IMG/VR virus record: IMGVR_UViG_3300044837_000096
Location: 1-27,457 of that record
Reading direction: 5' to 3' (one strand)
Length of the DNA: 27,457 nucleotides
From: a virus
Shown here: piece by piece, positions 8,982-26,012 of the stretch
Position numbering within the stretch: position 1 is the stretch's first letter
Layout: every line of letters begins with the position of its first letter
Made by a program: the position numbers and the translations under genes
The notes under the pieces: generated by a model
The model's input: only the letters and a program-made list of their open reading frames with translations
Databases searched by the model: none
Told to the model about the DNA's origin: nothing

Positions 8982-9263
8982 TTAGCATTCTTCTATGTTA
9001 TTCGTACTTGCCGCCGTCCAGCTAGTCGAAATTGTAACCCCTGAAAAACTCCAACTAGTAGAAACTAAAGTTAACCCCGTCCATGATGTTGTAACTAAAG
9101 TCGCTCCTAGACTTGTCACCGGCCCATACCATAAAGAAGTACATGGCCAGACAAGACCGTTAGTTAAGAGGCCCACTCCTTCGACTGTTTGAGTTTCTGT
9201 TAACCCATAGTCTAAAAGAGCGACCCCCCTAACGGTGACATCAAATAGATGCGGCGTCCCCAA
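8982..9263 (-). CDS. Short Trp/Ser/Thr-repeat structural protein
   Basis: The 93-residue product is not a known family to me. Its C-terminal half contains an 11-residue repeat built on a Ser/Thr-Ser-Trp core: TTSWTGLTLV, STSWSFSGVTI, STSWTAAS, after a related segment with CTSLWYG. These are likely short beta-strands. The gene overlaps the end of the glycosyltransferase gene by 23 nt in another frame, and precedes the adaptor by 10 bases. It is probably a virion surface or tail protein. The Ser/Thr richness makes it one candidate substrate for the glycosyltransferase encoded just upstream, but that is inference. Confidence 0.6.
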   Translation of the reverse strand: MGTPHLFDVTVRGVALLDYGLTETQTVEGVGLLTNGLVWPCTSLWYGPVTSLGATLVTTSWTGLTLVSTSWSFSGVTISTSWTAASTNNIEEC

Positions 9264-11538
9264 GGTAGTCCCCTATAACTTTATGTATCGGCGCTTCAAT
9301 TCCCGCCAATTCCAGAAAGTCCCTCGCTACAAAATTCCAAGAGTAATCGGTCGATACTGCATTCATATCAATCGACTCCCATTTTCTCTCTTCTAATACT
9401 GATTTAATCTCTTGAGCCCAAATCTCTCTCTCTTCTTCGGTATTCGCCTCTAAGAATAATAGAGATGCCCAGTTACGGTCGGCAAACGGTCTGACGATAT
9501 CTCGTAAAGCCCCGACCTCTCGAACAATCCCATAACAGCCGGCATACATCGCCTCAACCGCTGTAATACAAAACGTCTCGATAAAGTCCGCATTATAAAG
9601 CCAAATGACTGACTCTTTCATTTCACGAGCGAGAGTGTGTTGATCGACATTCCCGTGGTATTTAACCCATGGTCTCTCTTGAATCATAGTCTGCAATTTA
9701 TCGTGCAATTCTTTACGCCCGTATTTTACGAGATTTTCTAATCCGTAGTAGACGTGGAGTTCGAGAGGTTTGCCTGTAATCTCTCGTGCGCGCTCGGTGA
9801 TAAGTATGGCGCGGTCCAGTCCGCGATCAGGAGAATTAGGCCAAACAATCTTATTCTCGTTTTTAACTGCAGTAATCGCGAACCGTTCTTTGTTAACTCC
9901 GTTTCGACTGATATGAATTTTCTCGTAAGGTATTCCTTGCTGAATATGTACGTAGTCCCTATGGAATGGTGAGAGACAGATATGTTTATCATAGACATTC
10001 GATACCTCAGCCCCAGGAGTGTACAGATCGTGACACCACAAAAACGTCTTAGCATCCGTTAATTTAATATTATGCCTCCACGCAATGTGAAGGTCAGGTT
10101 TATACTTAGAAAAATACTCATACATTGAGTGCGCCGGTCGGTACTCCACTCCACTCTCACAAATCTTAGTTGTCTCACGAGTGTTAAATACAATGATATT
10201 ACGACCAGTCATTCTCTTCATGCGTTTAGCGACTTCGATCAGTGCGGTCTCTGAGCCGCCCATTCCTTTAACTGCATACAACTCTTCATCAAACGGATAT
10301 GGGTGAGAGTTAGGAATAGAAGAGAACACGATTTCATCTGTCTCTATTTTTAAAGAGTCAGAATGATTAATCATTTGGTTTTTCAAATTTAAGTACTGCT
10401 CTAAGATCTGTTTTGTCTCTGGATGATCGAATTTAGCTAAGCAGTCCTTAGCCTCGACAATCGCACCGTCTAGATCACCCATTTTAAATTTAATCATTGA
10501 GATAGCGTTACGAGGAATATGATCATACGCCGCATGATTTACAAAAATAAACCCGGTGCCGTTACGAGGTTTAATACAAGCCGCCGCTGCGGTATACATC
10601 GGTAGCGCCTCAGCATCTTTACCTTGCTGCACGAGACAGTCTGCGATTAGACAGAAGAATTCAGCCCTCATAGGAGATAGAACTAGTCCCTGTAATGCTA
10701 ATTGATGCCCCTTGAGAATAAGGCGTAAATCACGCTCTTGATGCGGCTTATGTAGTTCTTCAATGAAAAATCTCTGAATGCAAGAGCGTACGAGATACTC
10801 AAAACACAAGATGCGGTCGTGAAGCTCAAGCTTAGGATGAGTGACAATCTTATCAAGCCATGTATAAGCCTCAGCGAATCGTCCCTTATCATGAAGCTCC
10901 TTCCCGTAATACCATTCTAATCTTGGCGGTAATCCTTCAGGTTCTTTAGATCGTTTTTCTAGCATTGAAACATTACGGGAAAAGTCTTTTTGATAATCGG
11001 CTTCAGTGCGACGGTGATTAATCGTCCAATTCGGGACTTGGTTTGCATGTACTGGCTCTTTAGCCATCATTCCTTCATGAATGAAATACTCCCATTCGAA
11101 TTTCTTAGATCTTTTAACAACGCGTTCACGTAAAAACGTACAAATTGGATTACCGGCTGGGTCAAAAGTGTAGTTATAGGGTGCCATGTGAAAGTCCCCG
11201 AGTAACATCACATTATCACGCCATAAAATGAATTTTTCTTTAGAAGACATCTCGTCATCCAAATCCATCCACATTAAATAATCTGTTGTGACGTCTTTCA
11301 TTGAGAAGTTACGAGCTTTAGCGAAGTCATCGCACCACTCAAAGTGTTTTACAAAAACCGGAGCGCCCGCAATTTGAGATGCTTCGTGAGAAGTGGCGAA
11401 TTCAATGGTGCCGTCTTTAGATCCAGTATCAGTGAGCCAAATTTCATCAAAACAACCATGAACAGAGGCTAAAAAGCTCTTAATATGGTCAATTTCGTCT
11501 CTCATAATACTGCATAGTGCGATGGTCGGTCGTTTCAT
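9241..11538 (-). CDS. Two-domain glycosyltransferase, GT2-TPR-GT4 fusion
   Basis: At 765 residues this joins two glycosyltransferase domains. Residues 1-180 are a GT-A, family-2-type domain: LCSIMRDEIDHIKSFL, DEIWLTDTGSKDGT (31-44), DFAKARN (71-77), and the metal-binding MWMDLDDE (89-96). Residues about 200-385 look like TPR-type helical repeats. Residues about 420-690 are a GT-B, family-4-like domain: GGSETALIEVAKRM (427-440) and the EX7E signature ETFCITAVE with Glu654 and Glu662. Both catalytic signatures are present, so both halves may be active. The start ATG 11538 has AGGAG upstream. It sits among structural genes, between fibre-type proteins and the adaptor, suggesting modification of virion proteins or of the host surface. 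The sugar donors and the acceptor are unknown. Confidence 0.88.
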   Translation of the reverse strand: MKRPTIALCSIMRDEIDHIKSFLASVHGCFDEIWLTDTGSKDGTIEFATSHEASQIAGAPVFVKHFEWCDDFAKARNFSMKDVTTDYLMWMDLDDEMSSKEKFILWRDNVMLLGDFHMAPYNYTFDPAGNPICTFLRERVVKRSKKFEWEYFIHEGMMAKEPVHANQVPNWTINHRRTEADYQKDFSRNVSMLEKRSKEPEGLPPRLEWYYGKELHDKGRFAEAYTWLDKIVTHPKLELHDRILCFEYLVRSCIQRFFIEELHKPHQERDLRLILKGHQLALQGLVLSPMRAEFFCLIADCLVQQGKDAEALPMYTAAAACIKPRNGTGFIFVNHAAYDHIPRNAISMIKFKMGDLDGAIVEAKDCLAKFDHPETKQILEQYLNLKNQMINHSDSLKIETDEIVFSSIPNSHPYPFDEELYAVKGMGGSETALIEVAKRMKRMTGRNIIVFNTRETTKICESGVEYRPAHSMYEYFSKYKPDLHIAWRHNIKLTDAKTFLWCHDLYTPGAEVSNVYDKHICLSPFHRDYVHIQQGIPYEKIHISRNGVNKERFAITAVKNENKIVWPNSPDRGLDRAILITERAREITGKPLELHVYYGLENLVKYGRKELHDKLQTMIQERPWVKYHGNVDQHTLAREMKESVIWLYNADFIETFCITAVEAMYAGCYGIVREVGALRDIVRPFADRNWASLLFLEANTEEEREIWAQEIKSVLEERKWESIDMNAVSTDYSWNFVARDFLELAGIEAPIHKVIGDYLGDAASI

Positions 11539-19906: not shown

Positions 19907-20454
19907 TTCGCCTGACCAATCATCATCTCCCCATCTTTAGGGAACATGATCTGCTCAATCGTCAAACGCTCAGTCTTCGCAATCTCTTCAGCCATTCCGG
20001 CCTTACAAAGTCTTACATTCTTATAAATCATGTATCCGTTATGCGGGAATTTACCGCCACACAAATGAGCGATCAGACGTTCGTCACACTCTAACCATGC
20101 ACCGTCTGTAGCTCCAGACTCTTTCAAAGCTGCCAAAGCAATAGCCACATTACCGTCTAGCGCCATTAATTCTTCATTCAGTTTAATCCGATCAGCGAGA
20201 GTCTCTGCCGATGGCGTACGAACGGACTTCAATGAACTTACGGAAACTGCTCCACGCGATTCTACTAATGCCGACTCTTTGTCTGATGATGGGCCTGTAT
20301 GTGCTGCTAGTGGGCTGCCCTCTGCTATTCGTGTGGCTAATTGTTCAGCTTCTGCTAACACACTTTCAGTAGTCTTCGGTTTGGGACCTGGCTTTTTGCG
20401 TAAGACTTCTGATGAATGCGCTTTCGTATCCTGGGTCATTGGGGTGTCTGACAA
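19903..20454 (-). CDS. Hypothetical protein overlapping the terminase nuclease gene
   Basis: This 183-residue product is unrecognised. It starts at TTG 20454, preceded by AGAGG, so its first 89 nt overlap the terminase nuclease gene in another frame; an ATG at 20439 is the alternative. Residues about 17-30 are basic with an AT-hook-like stretch (VLRKKPGPKPKTT), then Ala/Glu/Ser-rich sequence and a mixed C-terminal domain (DERLIAHLCGGKFPHNGYMI). The stop overlaps the next gene by ATGA. A DNA-contact role in packaging is possible but speculative. Confidence 0.6.
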   Translation of the reverse strand: MSDTPMTQDTKAHSSEVLRKKPGPKPKTTESVLAEAEQLATRIAEGSPLAAHTGPSSDKESALVESRGAVSVSSLKSVRTPSAETLADRIKLNEELMALDGNVAIALAALKESGATDGAWLECDERLIAHLCGGKFPHNGYMIYKNVRLCKAGMAEEIAKTERLTIEQIMFPKDGEMMIGQAK

Positions 20455-21184
20455 CTTGAACCTCTTTCGGTTTGTCTGGATAAAATACTATGTCTTCAAT
20501 TGAACTAAGTGCGTCTAGCAGGTCATCATGCGCTCCGCGCGGGAATGATTTATATTCTAATAACAAATCATCCAGACCTTGGCTCAAGAAAATTTTGCCG
20601 AATTCAAATCTAGGAATCAAGCTCCGAATCCTGGCCCCTTTAGAATTGTCTGATTTTAATCCGCCATCGGTCGTGAACGACGCCCGCTTAATACCTTTAA
20701 GTGGAATGATCTTATTCCTTCTTAACATCTCTTCGGCGATAAATTGCTTAAGCGCAGATTGATAAGCGACTTCTTCTATGCCAACGGCTTGAGGCTTTAG
20801 GTCGTCATAGAGTTTAAATATCCAAGATAGAGTTTCTGTTGCCGTGATGCGTTGACGGCGTGCCATTGTAACATACCAGTTTTTATCTGGATCAACTCTC
20901 ACAACTACCGAAGCCGTATAATCAGCACCGTCATTTAATGAGATCGCTGGATCGATGAATATAAAAGTGTAATAAACTGGTGGAAGAAAGTCGTAGTACT
21001 TAATCCAACCTTGCTTAAAGTCTTGGTCTTCGTCTGGGACTGTAATATTTAAATAATTATTACTGAATTTATAAACGCCTTGGGATCTGCGTAATTCATC
21101 TAGCTTAGATTGAGATAAAACTTCTGGGAAGAATAACGATAGATCGTCGTTATAAGCTCCCGAATAAACTATGTCCCATTTCAT
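20366..21184 (-). CDS. terL: Large terminase, C-terminal nuclease domain as a separate ORF
   Basis: The 272 residues correspond to the second half of a large terminase. Residues 17-66 match the linker that normally follows the ATPase (SLFFPEVLSQSKLDELRRSQ, then YLNITVPDEDQDF). The RNase-H-like nuclease follows with its acidic triad: Asp78 in FIDPA, Glu137/138 in VGIEEVAY, and Asp220/221 in HDDLLDAL. It lacks a Walker motif of its own. The ATPase half is encoded at 21493-22224, with a 102-residue ORF between. The start ATG 21184 shares a base with the upstream stop (TAATG). The two halves must associate for headful-type or site-specific packaging; this is inference. Confidence 0.88.
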   Translation of the reverse strand: MKWDIVYSGAYNDDLSLFFPEVLSQSKLDELRRSQGVYKFSNNYLNITVPDEDQDFKQGWIKYYDFLPPVYYTFIFIDPAISLNDGADYTASVVVRVDPDKNWYVTMARRQRITATETLSWIFKLYDDLKPQAVGIEEVAYQSALKQFIAEEMLRRNKIIPLKGIKRASFTTDGGLKSDNSKGARIRSLIPRFEFGKIFLSQGLDDLLLEYKSFPRGAHDDLLDALSSIEDIVFYPDKPKEVQVVRHPNDPGYESAFIRSLTQKARSQTEDY

Positions 21185-21492: not shown

Positions 21493-22224
21493 CTAAACCC
21501 CTAATAAGCCTTGAGGCTCCAAAGAATAAACACCCATATCTTTCGGTAGTTTCTTTAAATGATCAACCGATTTTATTCCTAGCTCGTTCTTCAAGACCCA
21601 CCCAATAAGATCATCGTCGGAATAACGCGTTCCAACAATCACGTATGTGCCGGTCGGTGAGAGAATAGATTGATTGTATTGAAAGTGATTTACCACATTC
21701 TGTCGGCCTTCATGCGTGATCGAGTTACCCGGAGTATTTAAATCATCACCAATGATCACGTCATAATGCTGTGAGGTTTTCTGTGCACCAATACCCGATG
21801 CAGTGACTGACGCTTCTTTAATTACTTTATCTCTTGGTTTAATAGTTAGCTCTGACTCTGACCAAGTGTTACTAGACCAATCGCCAAAGATACGCGTGAA
21901 TGTTTCACTCTCTAAGTGCTGTCTAATCTCTCGAACGAACTTCGCGCTATTTGTGTAAATCTCTGAATCGATTAGAATTCTTAAATTTGGATTGTTCATT
22001 AAAAGCCAAATTGGATAAGCCACAGAACAAAGTGAGCTTTTGAATGTTCCACGTGGCACACATATCAGCTTACGTTTCGTCTCAGACTCTAACGCTGTGA
22101 TAATAGACTTGTGCGTTCGTTCAGTTATGTCCCGATAGCCCAATAGGTTTTGAGCTGTGTGGAATAGAGAGTCTCTATAGCACTCTTGAACCATCTCTTT
22201 AAGAGCGCGTTCTTCATTTTGCAC
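21493..22224 (-). CDS. terL: Large terminase, N-terminal ATPase domain as a separate ORF
   Basis: The 243 residues hold the packaging motor ATPase: Walker A CVPRGTFKSS (residues 55-64, Lys62), Walker B YDVIIGDD (154-161) with its acidic pair, and coupling motif VIVGTRYSDDDL (195-206). The ORF ends at TAG 37 residues after the motif III, in the linker before the nuclease domain, so this is a full ATPase but only half of a normal terminase. The start at GTG 22224 has no clear ribosome site; it overlaps the short hydrophobic ORF upstream by 11 nt and may rely on coupling. ATG 22194 is another possible start. The nuclease half is at 20366-21184. Confidence 0.9.
   Translation of the reverse strand: MQNEERALKEMVQECYRDSLFHTAQNLLGYRDITERTHKSIITALESETKRKLICVPRGTFKSSLCSVAYPIWLLMNNPNLRILIDSEIYTNSAKFVREIRQHLESETFTRIFGDWSSNTWSESELTIKPRDKVIKEASVTASGIGAQKTSQHYDVIIGDDLNTPGNSITHEGRQNVVNHFQYNQSILSPTGTYVIVGTRYSDDDLIGWVLKNELGIKSVDHLKKLPKDMGVYSLEPQGLLGV
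21503..21517. repeat. Imperfect 15-bp direct repeat at terminase insert (copy 2)
   Basis: This is the partner of the copy at 21193-21207 and lies in the last codons of the ATPase half of the terminase. The distance between copies is 310 bp, about the size of the inserted 102-residue ORF. Confidence 0.35.
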
Positions 22225-24397: not shown

Positions 24398-24603
24398 CAA
24401 TCTACTACTCTCTTGCTTGGCAATGGTGGTACTGCTTGCTTCGATCGCTGGCGATATTTACCATTAATTAAACTATTGCAGTGCCCGGTAATCCTACGGT
24501 TCGACCGCCCACTAAAAACCTCGCCAAGGCAATTAACGTAATAGGCTAGGAATTCAGTTTCAACAAATCCAGCCGGTACACTAAATGGCGCTTTTCTTCT
24601 CAT
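24397..24603 (-). CDS. Small basic protein, possibly NUMOD4-like
   Basis: The product is 68 residues from ATG 24603, preceded by AAGGA; a GTG at 24621 is in the same frame but has no better site. The start lies inside the SAM-methyltransferase-like gene with a 23-nt overlap. The stretch EFLAYYVNCLGEVFSGRSN, followed by RRITGH, loosely resembles the YxVSNxGxVxS pattern of NUMOD4 modules linked to homing HNH endonucleases. The tail is basic and Pro-rich (KQAVPPLPSKRVV). No HNH motif is present, so if related it would be a remnant or DNA-binding module only. Uncertain. Confidence 0.5.
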   Translation of the reverse strand: MRRKAPFSVPAGFVETEFLAYYVNCLGEVFSGRSNRRITGHCNSLINGKYRQRSKQAVPPLPSKRVVD

Positions 24604-25156
24604 AATTAGAGTCCTTAACACAAACCATTAGGCCATTATTATTTTGATAATCCATCTCAATTGACCACTCTGGGCGATCTGCTATATATTCTATAATCGC
24701 GTCCCTCAACCCCTTGTCAGAGCCATCTTCGCCTTTATGAGCATAGCTAACGGTATCATGTAGGACGATATACTTAGTCACGTTCTTGGCATGTCTTGCC
24801 AGCTCTGCCTTTAATTGCTTATAGGTGTGGAGCGTATCGCAAAAAAACAATTCAACTGGCTCAATGGGTACAGCTTCGAGCGTAGAGATTTGGTTAAATT
24901 CAAGATCGGTCTCTCCCCGAAGGGGGACAAAGAAGTCTACATCTCTTGGATCGATATTGATATCAAACGTAGCAATTGACGTTCCTGGGCGCCCACCAAG
25001 GCCCTTAAGTAGGGCGCAAAAGCTGGCTCCATGCCGGAATCCGAATTCAACCACCGTACTTACTCTTGAGGACAGCTCAACAAGGGTATCTAAATGCTCA
25101 GCAATATCTGGGGTGTCTTTTCGGTATTGTTCTAAAGCTTGCTCTATAGTAACCAT
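24581..25156 (-). CDS. Class I SAM-dependent methyltransferase-like protein
   Basis: The product is 191 residues. Motif I is VVEFGFRHGAS (35-45), followed by an acidic strand end TFDIN (63-67). Then come FFCDTLHTYKQLKAELARHA (104-123) and YIVLHDT (129-135), the pattern of Methyltransf_24-type enzymes, where His/Asp residues lie near the active site. Substrate is unknown; related phage and surface-polysaccharide enzymes act on sugars or small molecules. It starts at ATG 25156, with a perfect 9-bp inverted repeat covering the start codon (25155-25176). It could equally be a non-enzymatic relative. Confidence 0.75.
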   Translation of the reverse strand: MVTIEQALEQYRKDTPDIAEHLDTLVELSSRVSTVVEFGFRHGASFCALLKGLGGRPGTSIATFDINIDPRDVDFFVPLRGETDLEFNQISTLEAVPIEPVELFFCDTLHTYKQLKAELARHAKNVTKYIVLHDTVSYAHKGEDGSDKGLRDAIIEYIADRPEWSIEMDYQNNNGLMVCVKDSNYEKKSAI

Positions 25157-25176
25157 ACCTGAAGAGTTTCAGGTAT
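25155..25176 (-). promoter_or_regulatory. Perfect inverted repeat over the methyltransferase start
   Basis: On the + strand atacctgaa (25155-25163) and ttcaggtat (25168-25176) form a perfect 9-bp inverted repeat around gagt. The - strand ATG (25156-25154) begins inside the repeat, so in the RNA a hairpin would hide the start codon and the only nearby purine-rich site. It could be a translational switch or a repressor operator. The AT-rich stretch ttaaatagtcgtcaa just upstream could hold a promoter. Confidence 0.5.
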
Positions 25177-25289: not shown

Positions 25290-25358
25290 CTATGATTGAG
25301 AATCAACAGCAGCCTCATCCCTAGCGGTCTCAAAGTTATCGTTTTTAGGTTGGTTCAT
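25290..25358 (-). CDS. Short ORF sharing the FETARDEAA module
   Basis: A 22-codon ORF from ATG 25358 overlaps the upstream gene's stop (ATGA). Its residues 5-17 (KNDNFETARDEAA) are nearly the same as residues 5-17 of the 45-residue ORF at 25552-25689, and the 37-bp DNA under them is 35/37 identical. It ends after AVDSQS. The start overlap argues for translation, but it looks truncated; the continuation may be the -1 frame ORF at 25192-25281. Confidence 0.4.
   Translation of the reverse strand: MNQPKNDNFETARDEAAVDSQS
25312..25348. repeat. 37-bp direct repeat R1, copy A
   Basis: This copy matches 25643-25679 at 35 of 37 positions in the same orientation. It codes on the - strand for the N-terminal module KNDxFETARDEAA of two short ORFs. 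Confidence 0.85.
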
Positions 25359-25555
25359 AATTCACCAAGCAATTCAGCACTGCTGAAATTAATAAACTCA
25401 TAAAACCCAATCGCATCTAGGCCGCCCTTATGAAAAATCCAGAACAACTCGTCTTGGTCGATAAAGTACAAAAACATTTCATCATGTTCTCGGTGATAAC
25501 CAACAAACCATGACGAGCGCATTTGCATTGTAACTTTGTATTGTGGCTCACTCAT
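25355..25555 (-). CDS. Hypothetical aromatic-rich small protein
   Basis: The product is 66 residues from ATG 25555, with CAGGGGGAAAAGA directly upstream; a longer TTG-started frame from 25588 ignores that site. It is rich in Phe, Tyr, Trp and acidic residues (SWFVGYHREHDEMFLYFIDQ, then DELFWIFHKGG, AIGFYEFINF). It could fold as a small beta-rich domain; it does not show an unbroken membrane helix. Its start overlaps the 45-residue ORF by ATGA, and its own stop overlaps the next short ORF by ATGA. It occupies the variable slot of the second copy of a duplicated cassette. Confidence 0.6.
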   Translation of the reverse strand: MSEPQYKVTMQMRSSWFVGYHREHDEMFLYFIDQDELFWIFHKGGLDAIGFYEFINFSSAELLGEL

Positions 25556-25579
25556 TCTTTTCCCCCTGTGGGCGCTGGG
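25549..25579. repeat. Direct repeat R2, copy A (gene-boundary repeat)
   Basis: This 31-bp copy matches 25747-25776 apart from one base gap and a substitution. On the - strand it encodes a PAPTGGKE C-terminus, a Shine-Dalgarno site and the first codons (Met-Ser-Glu) of the next gene, so the repeat spans a gene boundary. Confidence 0.85.
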
Positions 25580-25689
25580 GGTTTGCAAAATAAATTAATA
25601 AATTTCCTCATGACGCTCTTCTTTGATTCCGGCGCTTCCGCTGCCTCATCCCGAGCGGTCTCAAATTTATCGTTTTTAGTGTCGGCCAT
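25552..25689 (-). CDS. 45-residue ORF with FETARDEAA module
   Basis: This ORF from ATG 25689 has GGAG nine bases upstream and ends by ATGA with the next gene. Residues 5-17 (KNDKFETARDEAA) match the 22-residue ORF downstream. Then come a basic stretch (ESKKSVMRKFINLF), a Cys and KPPAPTGGKE. The C-terminal PAPTGGK also ends the 88-residue gene upstream, because both are coded by repeat R2. It appears to be a composite of two repeated modules. No function is known. Confidence 0.6.
   Translation of the reverse strand: MADTKNDKFETARDEAAEAPESKKSVMRKFINLFCKPPAPTGGKE
25643..25679. repeat. 37-bp direct repeat R1, copy B
   Basis: This is the partner of 25312-25348 (35 of 37 identical). It underlies the KNDKFETARDEAA module of the 45-residue ORF and overlaps the 3' end of the 25-residue membrane ORF. 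Confidence 0.85.
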
Positions 25690-25753
25690 AGGTGCTCCAT
25701 AAATGTAAAAGTCCACAACTAATCCAAACTAGCCACCAGATTACTTCACTCAT
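25676..25753 (-). CDS. 25-residue Trp-rich membrane microprotein
   Basis: The ORF begins at ATG 25753 with a perfect AGGAGG five bases upstream, one of the best ribosome sites in the window. It encodes MSEVIWWLVWISCGLLHLW, then STYGRH: a single hydrophobic, Trp-rich helix. Its start overlaps the 88-residue gene by 8 nt and its end overlaps the 45-residue ORF start. The excellent site in a region of tightly packed genes argues for real translation. It fills the variable slot of the first copy of the duplicated cassette. Confidence 0.55.
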   Translation of the reverse strand: MSEVIWWLVWISCGLLHLWSTYGRH

Positions 25754-26012
25754 TCTTTCCTCCTGTGGGCGCTGGGTCTGGTTCTATTCTTTGTGCGACC
25801 ATTTCAAGATAGGGAATGAGGTCTTTAGCAACATGTGTTCGAACATCTTTGCGGTTATCCACATCTCTTAAAGTAATAAGCTCAGAGTCACGGTATGCTA
25901 CTCGTCTAGTAATTCGCCAAATTTTATTTTTATGATCGCGAACATCTCTTACCTTGTCGCCAGGTAGAAATGTAGGTAGCTCGTTTAGATTGAAAGGATT
26001 AATGGGTCTCAC
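25746..26012 (-). CDS. Hypothetical small SH3/KOW-like protein
   Basis: The product is 88 residues from GTG 26012, joined to the upstream gene by GTGA. The central part, FLPGDKVRDVRDHKNKIWRI (about residues 15-34), has the 'PGDxV...D......W.I' pattern of small SH3- or KOW-like beta barrels; the rest is charged (RDVDNRKDVRTHVAKDLIPY). It ends PAPTGGKNE, coded by repeat R2. I cannot name a family. Small barrels of this kind often bind nucleic acid or protein, so it may be an early regulator. Confidence 0.6.
   Translation of the reverse strand: MRPINPFNLNELPTFLPGDKVRDVRDHKNKIWRITRRVAYRDSELITLRDVDNRKDVRTHVAKDLIPYLEMVAQRIEPDPAPTGGKNE
25747..25776. repeat. Direct repeat R2, copy B (gene-boundary repeat)
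   Basis: This 30-bp copy pairs with 25549-25579. On the - strand it carries the PAPTGGK end of one gene, an AGGAGG site and the Met-Ser-Glu start of the 25-residue membrane ORF. Confidence 0.85.

Follow-up and report, generated by a model that had tools for sequence, protein, structure and literature searches.

The DNA analyzed here (the window) is a 27,457-base fragment of an IMG/VR virus record from an uncultivated phage and, according to family scans of the PHROGs/Pfam type, encodes a P22-like portal, a major head protein and a scaffolding protein. In the interval separating early small genes from the methyltransferase/terminase block, its minus strand carries, in order, an 88-residue gene, a 25-residue ORF (X1), a 45-residue ORF (KND1), a 66-residue ORF (X2), a 22-residue ORF (KND2) and a methyltransferase-like gene (table 1). 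Two different DNA repeats, R2 and R1, border the X ORFs such that R2, a variable gene and R1 follow one another twice in tandem; a preliminary description of the window had reported this arrangement, and all of its elements were confirmed by their positions, alignment scores and simulations. Its term "array" overstates the case, since there are only two units. Downstream of the second unit, a perfect 9-bp inverted repeat (ATACCTGAA-ACTC-TTCAGGTAT, 25155–25176) reaches into the methyltransferase start codon, with TTGACG just upstream, and is a possible operator or translational hairpin. A scan of the window for known RNA elements, tRNA and tmRNA returned none.

Table 1. Positions of the repeats and genes at the duplicated locus, and of the terminase halves in the window and related contigs.
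Feature	Genome	Positions	Strand	Remarks
Whole duplicated locus	Window	25290–25776	−	
88-aa ORF, GTG start	Window	25746–26012	−	Upstream gene; 3′ end (...PDPAPTGGKNE-stop) is R2 copy 1
R2 copy 1, CCCAGCGCCCACAGGAGGAAAGAATGAGTGA	Window	25746–25776	−	Covers the end of the upstream gene, a GGAGG ribosome site and the Met-Ser-Glu start
X1, Trp-rich 25-aa ORF, MSEVIWWLVWISCGLLHLWSTYGRH	Window	25676–25753	−	14-nt overlap with next ORF; coding status uncertain
R1 copy 1	Window	25621–25690	−	
KND1, 45-aa ORF, MADTKNDKFETARDEAAEAPESKKSVMRKFINLFCKPPAPTGGKE	Window	25552–25689	−	Its tail is a repeat of that of the 88-aa gene
R2 copy 2, CCCAGCGCCCACAGGGGGAAAAGAATGAGTGA	Window	25548–25579	−	Differs from copy 1 by one mismatch and an additional A
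X2, aromatic-rich 66-aa ORF	Window	25355–25555	−	Family match absent
R1 copy 2	Window	25290–25359	−	
KND2, 22-aa ORF, MNQPKNDNFETARDEAAVDSQS	Window	25290–25358	−	
Methyltransferase-like gene, 191 aa, RMNT_CmcI	Window	24581–25156	−	Conserved downstream anchor; 54% identity in L033
Terminase large subunit, two genes	Window	21493–22224 and 20366–21184	−	
Split terminase halves	L005	3912–4655 and 8550–9374		
Split terminase halves	L009	246–1001 and 6078–6914		
Split terminase halves	L010	1244–1987 and 7525–8340		
Split terminase halves	L014	4917–5648 and 8073–8885		

The two copies of R2 agree in 30 of 32 columns and comprise the 3′ end of the gene preceding X, a Shine–Dalgarno sequence and an ATG-AGT-GA start; the inserted A lies in an A-run and shifts the stop of the upstream gene, whose product ends in GGKNE in one copy and GGKE in the other. 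R1 spans the start and core of the KND gene, where it encodes KNDxFETARDEAA, and its copies are identical at 53 of 70 nucleotides (76%), with an alignment score of 36 as against at most 16 across 100 Markov simulations. The consensus patterns of R1 and R2 match the window twice each, where 0 matches are expected (100 shuffles). KND1 and KND2 are small paralogous proteins with 14 of 22 residues in common, and differ in length. Homology between the units ends sharply at X codon 3 and at the KND gene start.

Upstream of its ribosome site, R2 includes 15 identical nucleotides (CCCAGCGCCCACAGG) that encode the PAPTGG tail of the 88-residue protein. Since no part in translation start is evident for these nucleotides, they argue for common descent of the R2 copies and not for a ribosome site that both simply share. 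The same PAPTGG tail is also fused to the end of KND1, and such a fusion is what the junction of a tandem duplication would leave. We considered whether the repeats could instead have separate causes, with R2 a regulatory element associated with gene starts, KND a family of short functional peptides, and no single duplication having taken place. Start-associated sequences are known from cluster K mycobacteriophages (PMC3203893), junctions of the (A/G)TGAGT type recur in this operon, and in the related contig L013 a 0.7-kb stretch (750–1436) holds six copies of GGGGTTAA that resemble start-associated sequences, four of them no more than 4 bases from the ATG of a small gene. Nonetheless, R2 occurs only twice in the window, contains the 15 identical nucleotides of upstream coding sequence, and recurs with R1 in the same order, and we regard separate causes as very improbable.

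The ORFs in the middle of the two units are as first described, Trp-rich with 25 residues in X1 and aromatic with 66 in X2, and homology between them is undetectable (P = 0.16). Homology across the whole unit, which would be expected of a fresh duplication and lost if the middle had been replaced, is therefore absent. X1 itself is weak as a gene, and perhaps none at all: its hydropathy is ordinary given its base composition (P = 0.30), although its four Trp codons are unusual (P = 0.001) and a good GGAGG site precedes it. These features bear on a scenario of decay, in which the two units started out with one and the same middle gene, a deletion removed most of it from the first unit, and the 25-residue ORF is a chance translation of the remnant. 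The shortness of X1, its overlap with the next gene and its unremarkable hydropathy fit such a remnant, whereas its ribosome site and its Trp codons do not; nor does the DNA of X1 show homology to that of X2, and we consider decay unlikely.

Structure prediction for X2 from its single sequence gave strands plus one helix at low confidence (pLDDT 55). For X1, X2, KND1, KND2 and the 88-residue protein alike, the libraries against which each was scanned (from among Pfam, PHROGs and PADLOC) returned no convincing family. X and KND are paired and overlapping in both units and stand among early small genes, as might be expected if the pair were a functional two-gene unit directed against the host or a rival phage (e.g., a membrane peptide and its partner) and had been duplicated to diversify X. 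Against this putative role, the proteins scanned have no match in Pfam, PHROGs or PADLOC, and the two X ORFs are unrelated; we place it as the most remote of the readings considered here.

The repeats have not diverged evenly. Identity is 94% of columns in R2, 90% in the R1 core (codons 5–17, with 4 differences in 39 nt) and 52% in the R1 edges (13 differences in 27 nt; core vs. edges, Fisher P = 0.001). Three of the four base changes in the core are synonymous, one being CGG to AGG, and because the core changes are mostly synonymous while the edges have diverged, the peptide core KNDxFETARDEAA is probably under selection, few as the counted changes are. The pattern in R1, small numbers notwithstanding, fits selection on the peptide better than selection on the DNA as a recombination site. 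A candidate homology between KND and the small genes of 62 and 66 residues at the corresponding locus of L033 and L005 was rejected (profile probability 0.1%), as was the notion of R1 as a widespread motif, a relaxed FETARDEA pattern having matched just two near-identical tape-measure-like proteins, a match judged to be chance.

No close phage is present in GenBank: blastn with 23–27.5 kb of the window recovered only a DNA methyltransferase and one hypothetical gene at 66–69% identity. Queries with the 124-residue upstream gene, and with the portal in GTDB genomes, yielded zero relatives. We gathered 31 related contigs from IMG/VR with a portal profile, the closest of which (L002/L033) encodes a portal and both terminase halves that are 65–75% identical to those of the window (70–75% for the terminase halves of L033).

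The terminase large subunit of the window is encoded by two separate genes, the N-terminal part matching positions 267–470 of phrog_38 and the C-terminal part positions 486–713. Equivalent halves occur in several relatives (table 1; also L007 and L011), with one to about eight unrelated genes (0.3 to 5.6 kb) intervening; among these there are often members of a gene family of about 100–120 residues, sometimes as tandem copies. By these comparisons, the split subunit appears to be carried by the whole clade of the phage; our literature search found nothing matching it. Elsewhere in the window, a 765-residue protein (9241–11538, minus strand) is a fusion of two different glycosyltransferase families (phrog_13126 and phrog_2170) and has counterparts of 38–61% identity in the relatives. 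Short tandem repeat arrays are found in L007 (1–127), L036 (11451–11720) and L037 (near 11108–11326); those of L007 and L036 consist of 12-nt units at or near a contig end, and that of L036 encodes a Gly/Asn/Asp/Tyr-rich protein.

The preliminary description had proposed that repeats placed across gene junctions could let genes be exchanged by homologous recombination, a proposal against which absence of the repeats from relatives would count. The first part of it stands, in that 30–40 nt of near-identity border unrelated genes, where homologous recombination could remove a middle gene or swap it, but no exchanged form was found anywhere. Neither IMG/VR nor GTDB genomes contain a true match to the R1 pattern, the R2 pattern was not found in IMG/VR, and KND1 has zero matches in phage GenBank. 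The one relative that clearly covers the locus, L033, lacks R1, R2, X and KND altogether; a phosphoesterase-like gene lies upstream of its methyltransferase, together with a stretch that is largely non-coding and a 62-residue gene that is also present in L005. An R1-like peptide was likewise not found on contigs around more distant methyltransferase relatives, and no ancestor with a single unit turned up among the relatives. These border sequences were thus not found around another gene in IMG/VR (R1 and R2), in GTDB (R1) or in the closest relative, and by the standard that the preliminary description set itself, the data searched do not support exchange. Among the window proteins scanned there is no integrase of the kind that an integron-like cassette array would need.

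These searches weigh on the possibility that the locus is an assemblage of exchangeable microgenes, with R1 and R2 kept as homologous landing sites and the middle genes swapped among phages by general recombination. In its favor, two unrelated ORFs are each flanked by near-identical stretches, and lambda Red can recombine DNA diverged by 22% (PMC2327257); yet the borders are missing from the collections searched and from the closest relative, the units number two, and the pattern in the R1 core is explained by protein coding. We judge this account distinctly unlikely, and consider it about as unlikely that R1 and R2 are maintained as the ends of an exchangeable two-gene unit, in which case other middle genes would lie between these borders in close relatives of the phage. 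With one relative clearly covering the locus, and with the nearest records possibly missing from the set searched, exchange of the middle genes is unproven but may still occur.

The account we favor, with moderate confidence, is that a pair of small genes was duplicated in tandem and that one middle gene was then replaced or lost. Tandem duplication is marked by paralogous units that lie side by side and agree in order and orientation, as they do here, and boundary mosaicism by a non-homologous gene with homologous DNA on either side, here X1 and X2 between R2 and R1. Under this hypothesis, the pair formed by X and KND, bounded by the 3′ end of the 88-residue gene, would have been duplicated in tandem, with one junction joining the tail of that gene (R2) to the end of the first KND gene, whereby gene end, ribosome site and start codon would have been copied together. 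The middle gene of one unit would later have been replaced or lost through recombination at or near the gene borders, and the KND core would have been conserved because the short peptide is used. Alternatively, the two units could derive from two different parents. Indeed, the unequal divergence of R2, the R1 core and the R1 edges is ill suited to a single neutral duplication of one age in the absence of selection or separate exchanges, and may leave room for a two-parent origin. Tandem paralogues of small genes are found elsewhere in the clade (301/302 residues in L005, 118/122 in L014), as are repeats in L013 and L015, showing that small-gene duplication is common in this group. As none of the related phages examined has the repeats, the usual phage processes of gene duplication and mosaic recombination seem to account for the locus, which is one isolated example of something already known.

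A close precedent is provided by genes 67 and 68 of mycobacteriophage Island3, which have 18 C-terminal residues and about 50 bp in common, read as the outcome of recombination between repeats (Pope et al. 2011; PMC3029335). As at our locus, adjacent small genes there have a common C-terminal tail and a DNA repeat, and recombination explains the gain or loss of one gene (PMC3029335); however, an empty form is known in that case (Brujita), whereas here two types of repeat border two middle ORFs and the alternative form was not found. The boundary sequences of mosaic lambdoid phages similarly place homology at gene borders that flank non-homologous genes (cited in PMC3029335 and PMC2327257), but they are common to different phages, whereas this genome is the only one in which R1 and R2 were found. 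The start-associated sequences of cluster K mycobacteriophages resemble R2 in their position close to the ribosome sites and start codons of small genes (PMC3203893), but occur in many copies at many genes, unlike the two copies of R2, which extend into upstream coding sequence.

Border sequences of this kind cannot be found at most mosaic junctions (PMC3029335), and a clear case such as this one therefore has some value. At present, the locus is one well-formed and statistically secure instance of a duplication whose middle genes are not homologous. Should close relatives bear it out, it would capture in compact form how repeats at gene junctions let the small-gene regions of phages gain and swap genes, a process of which few clear examples exist.
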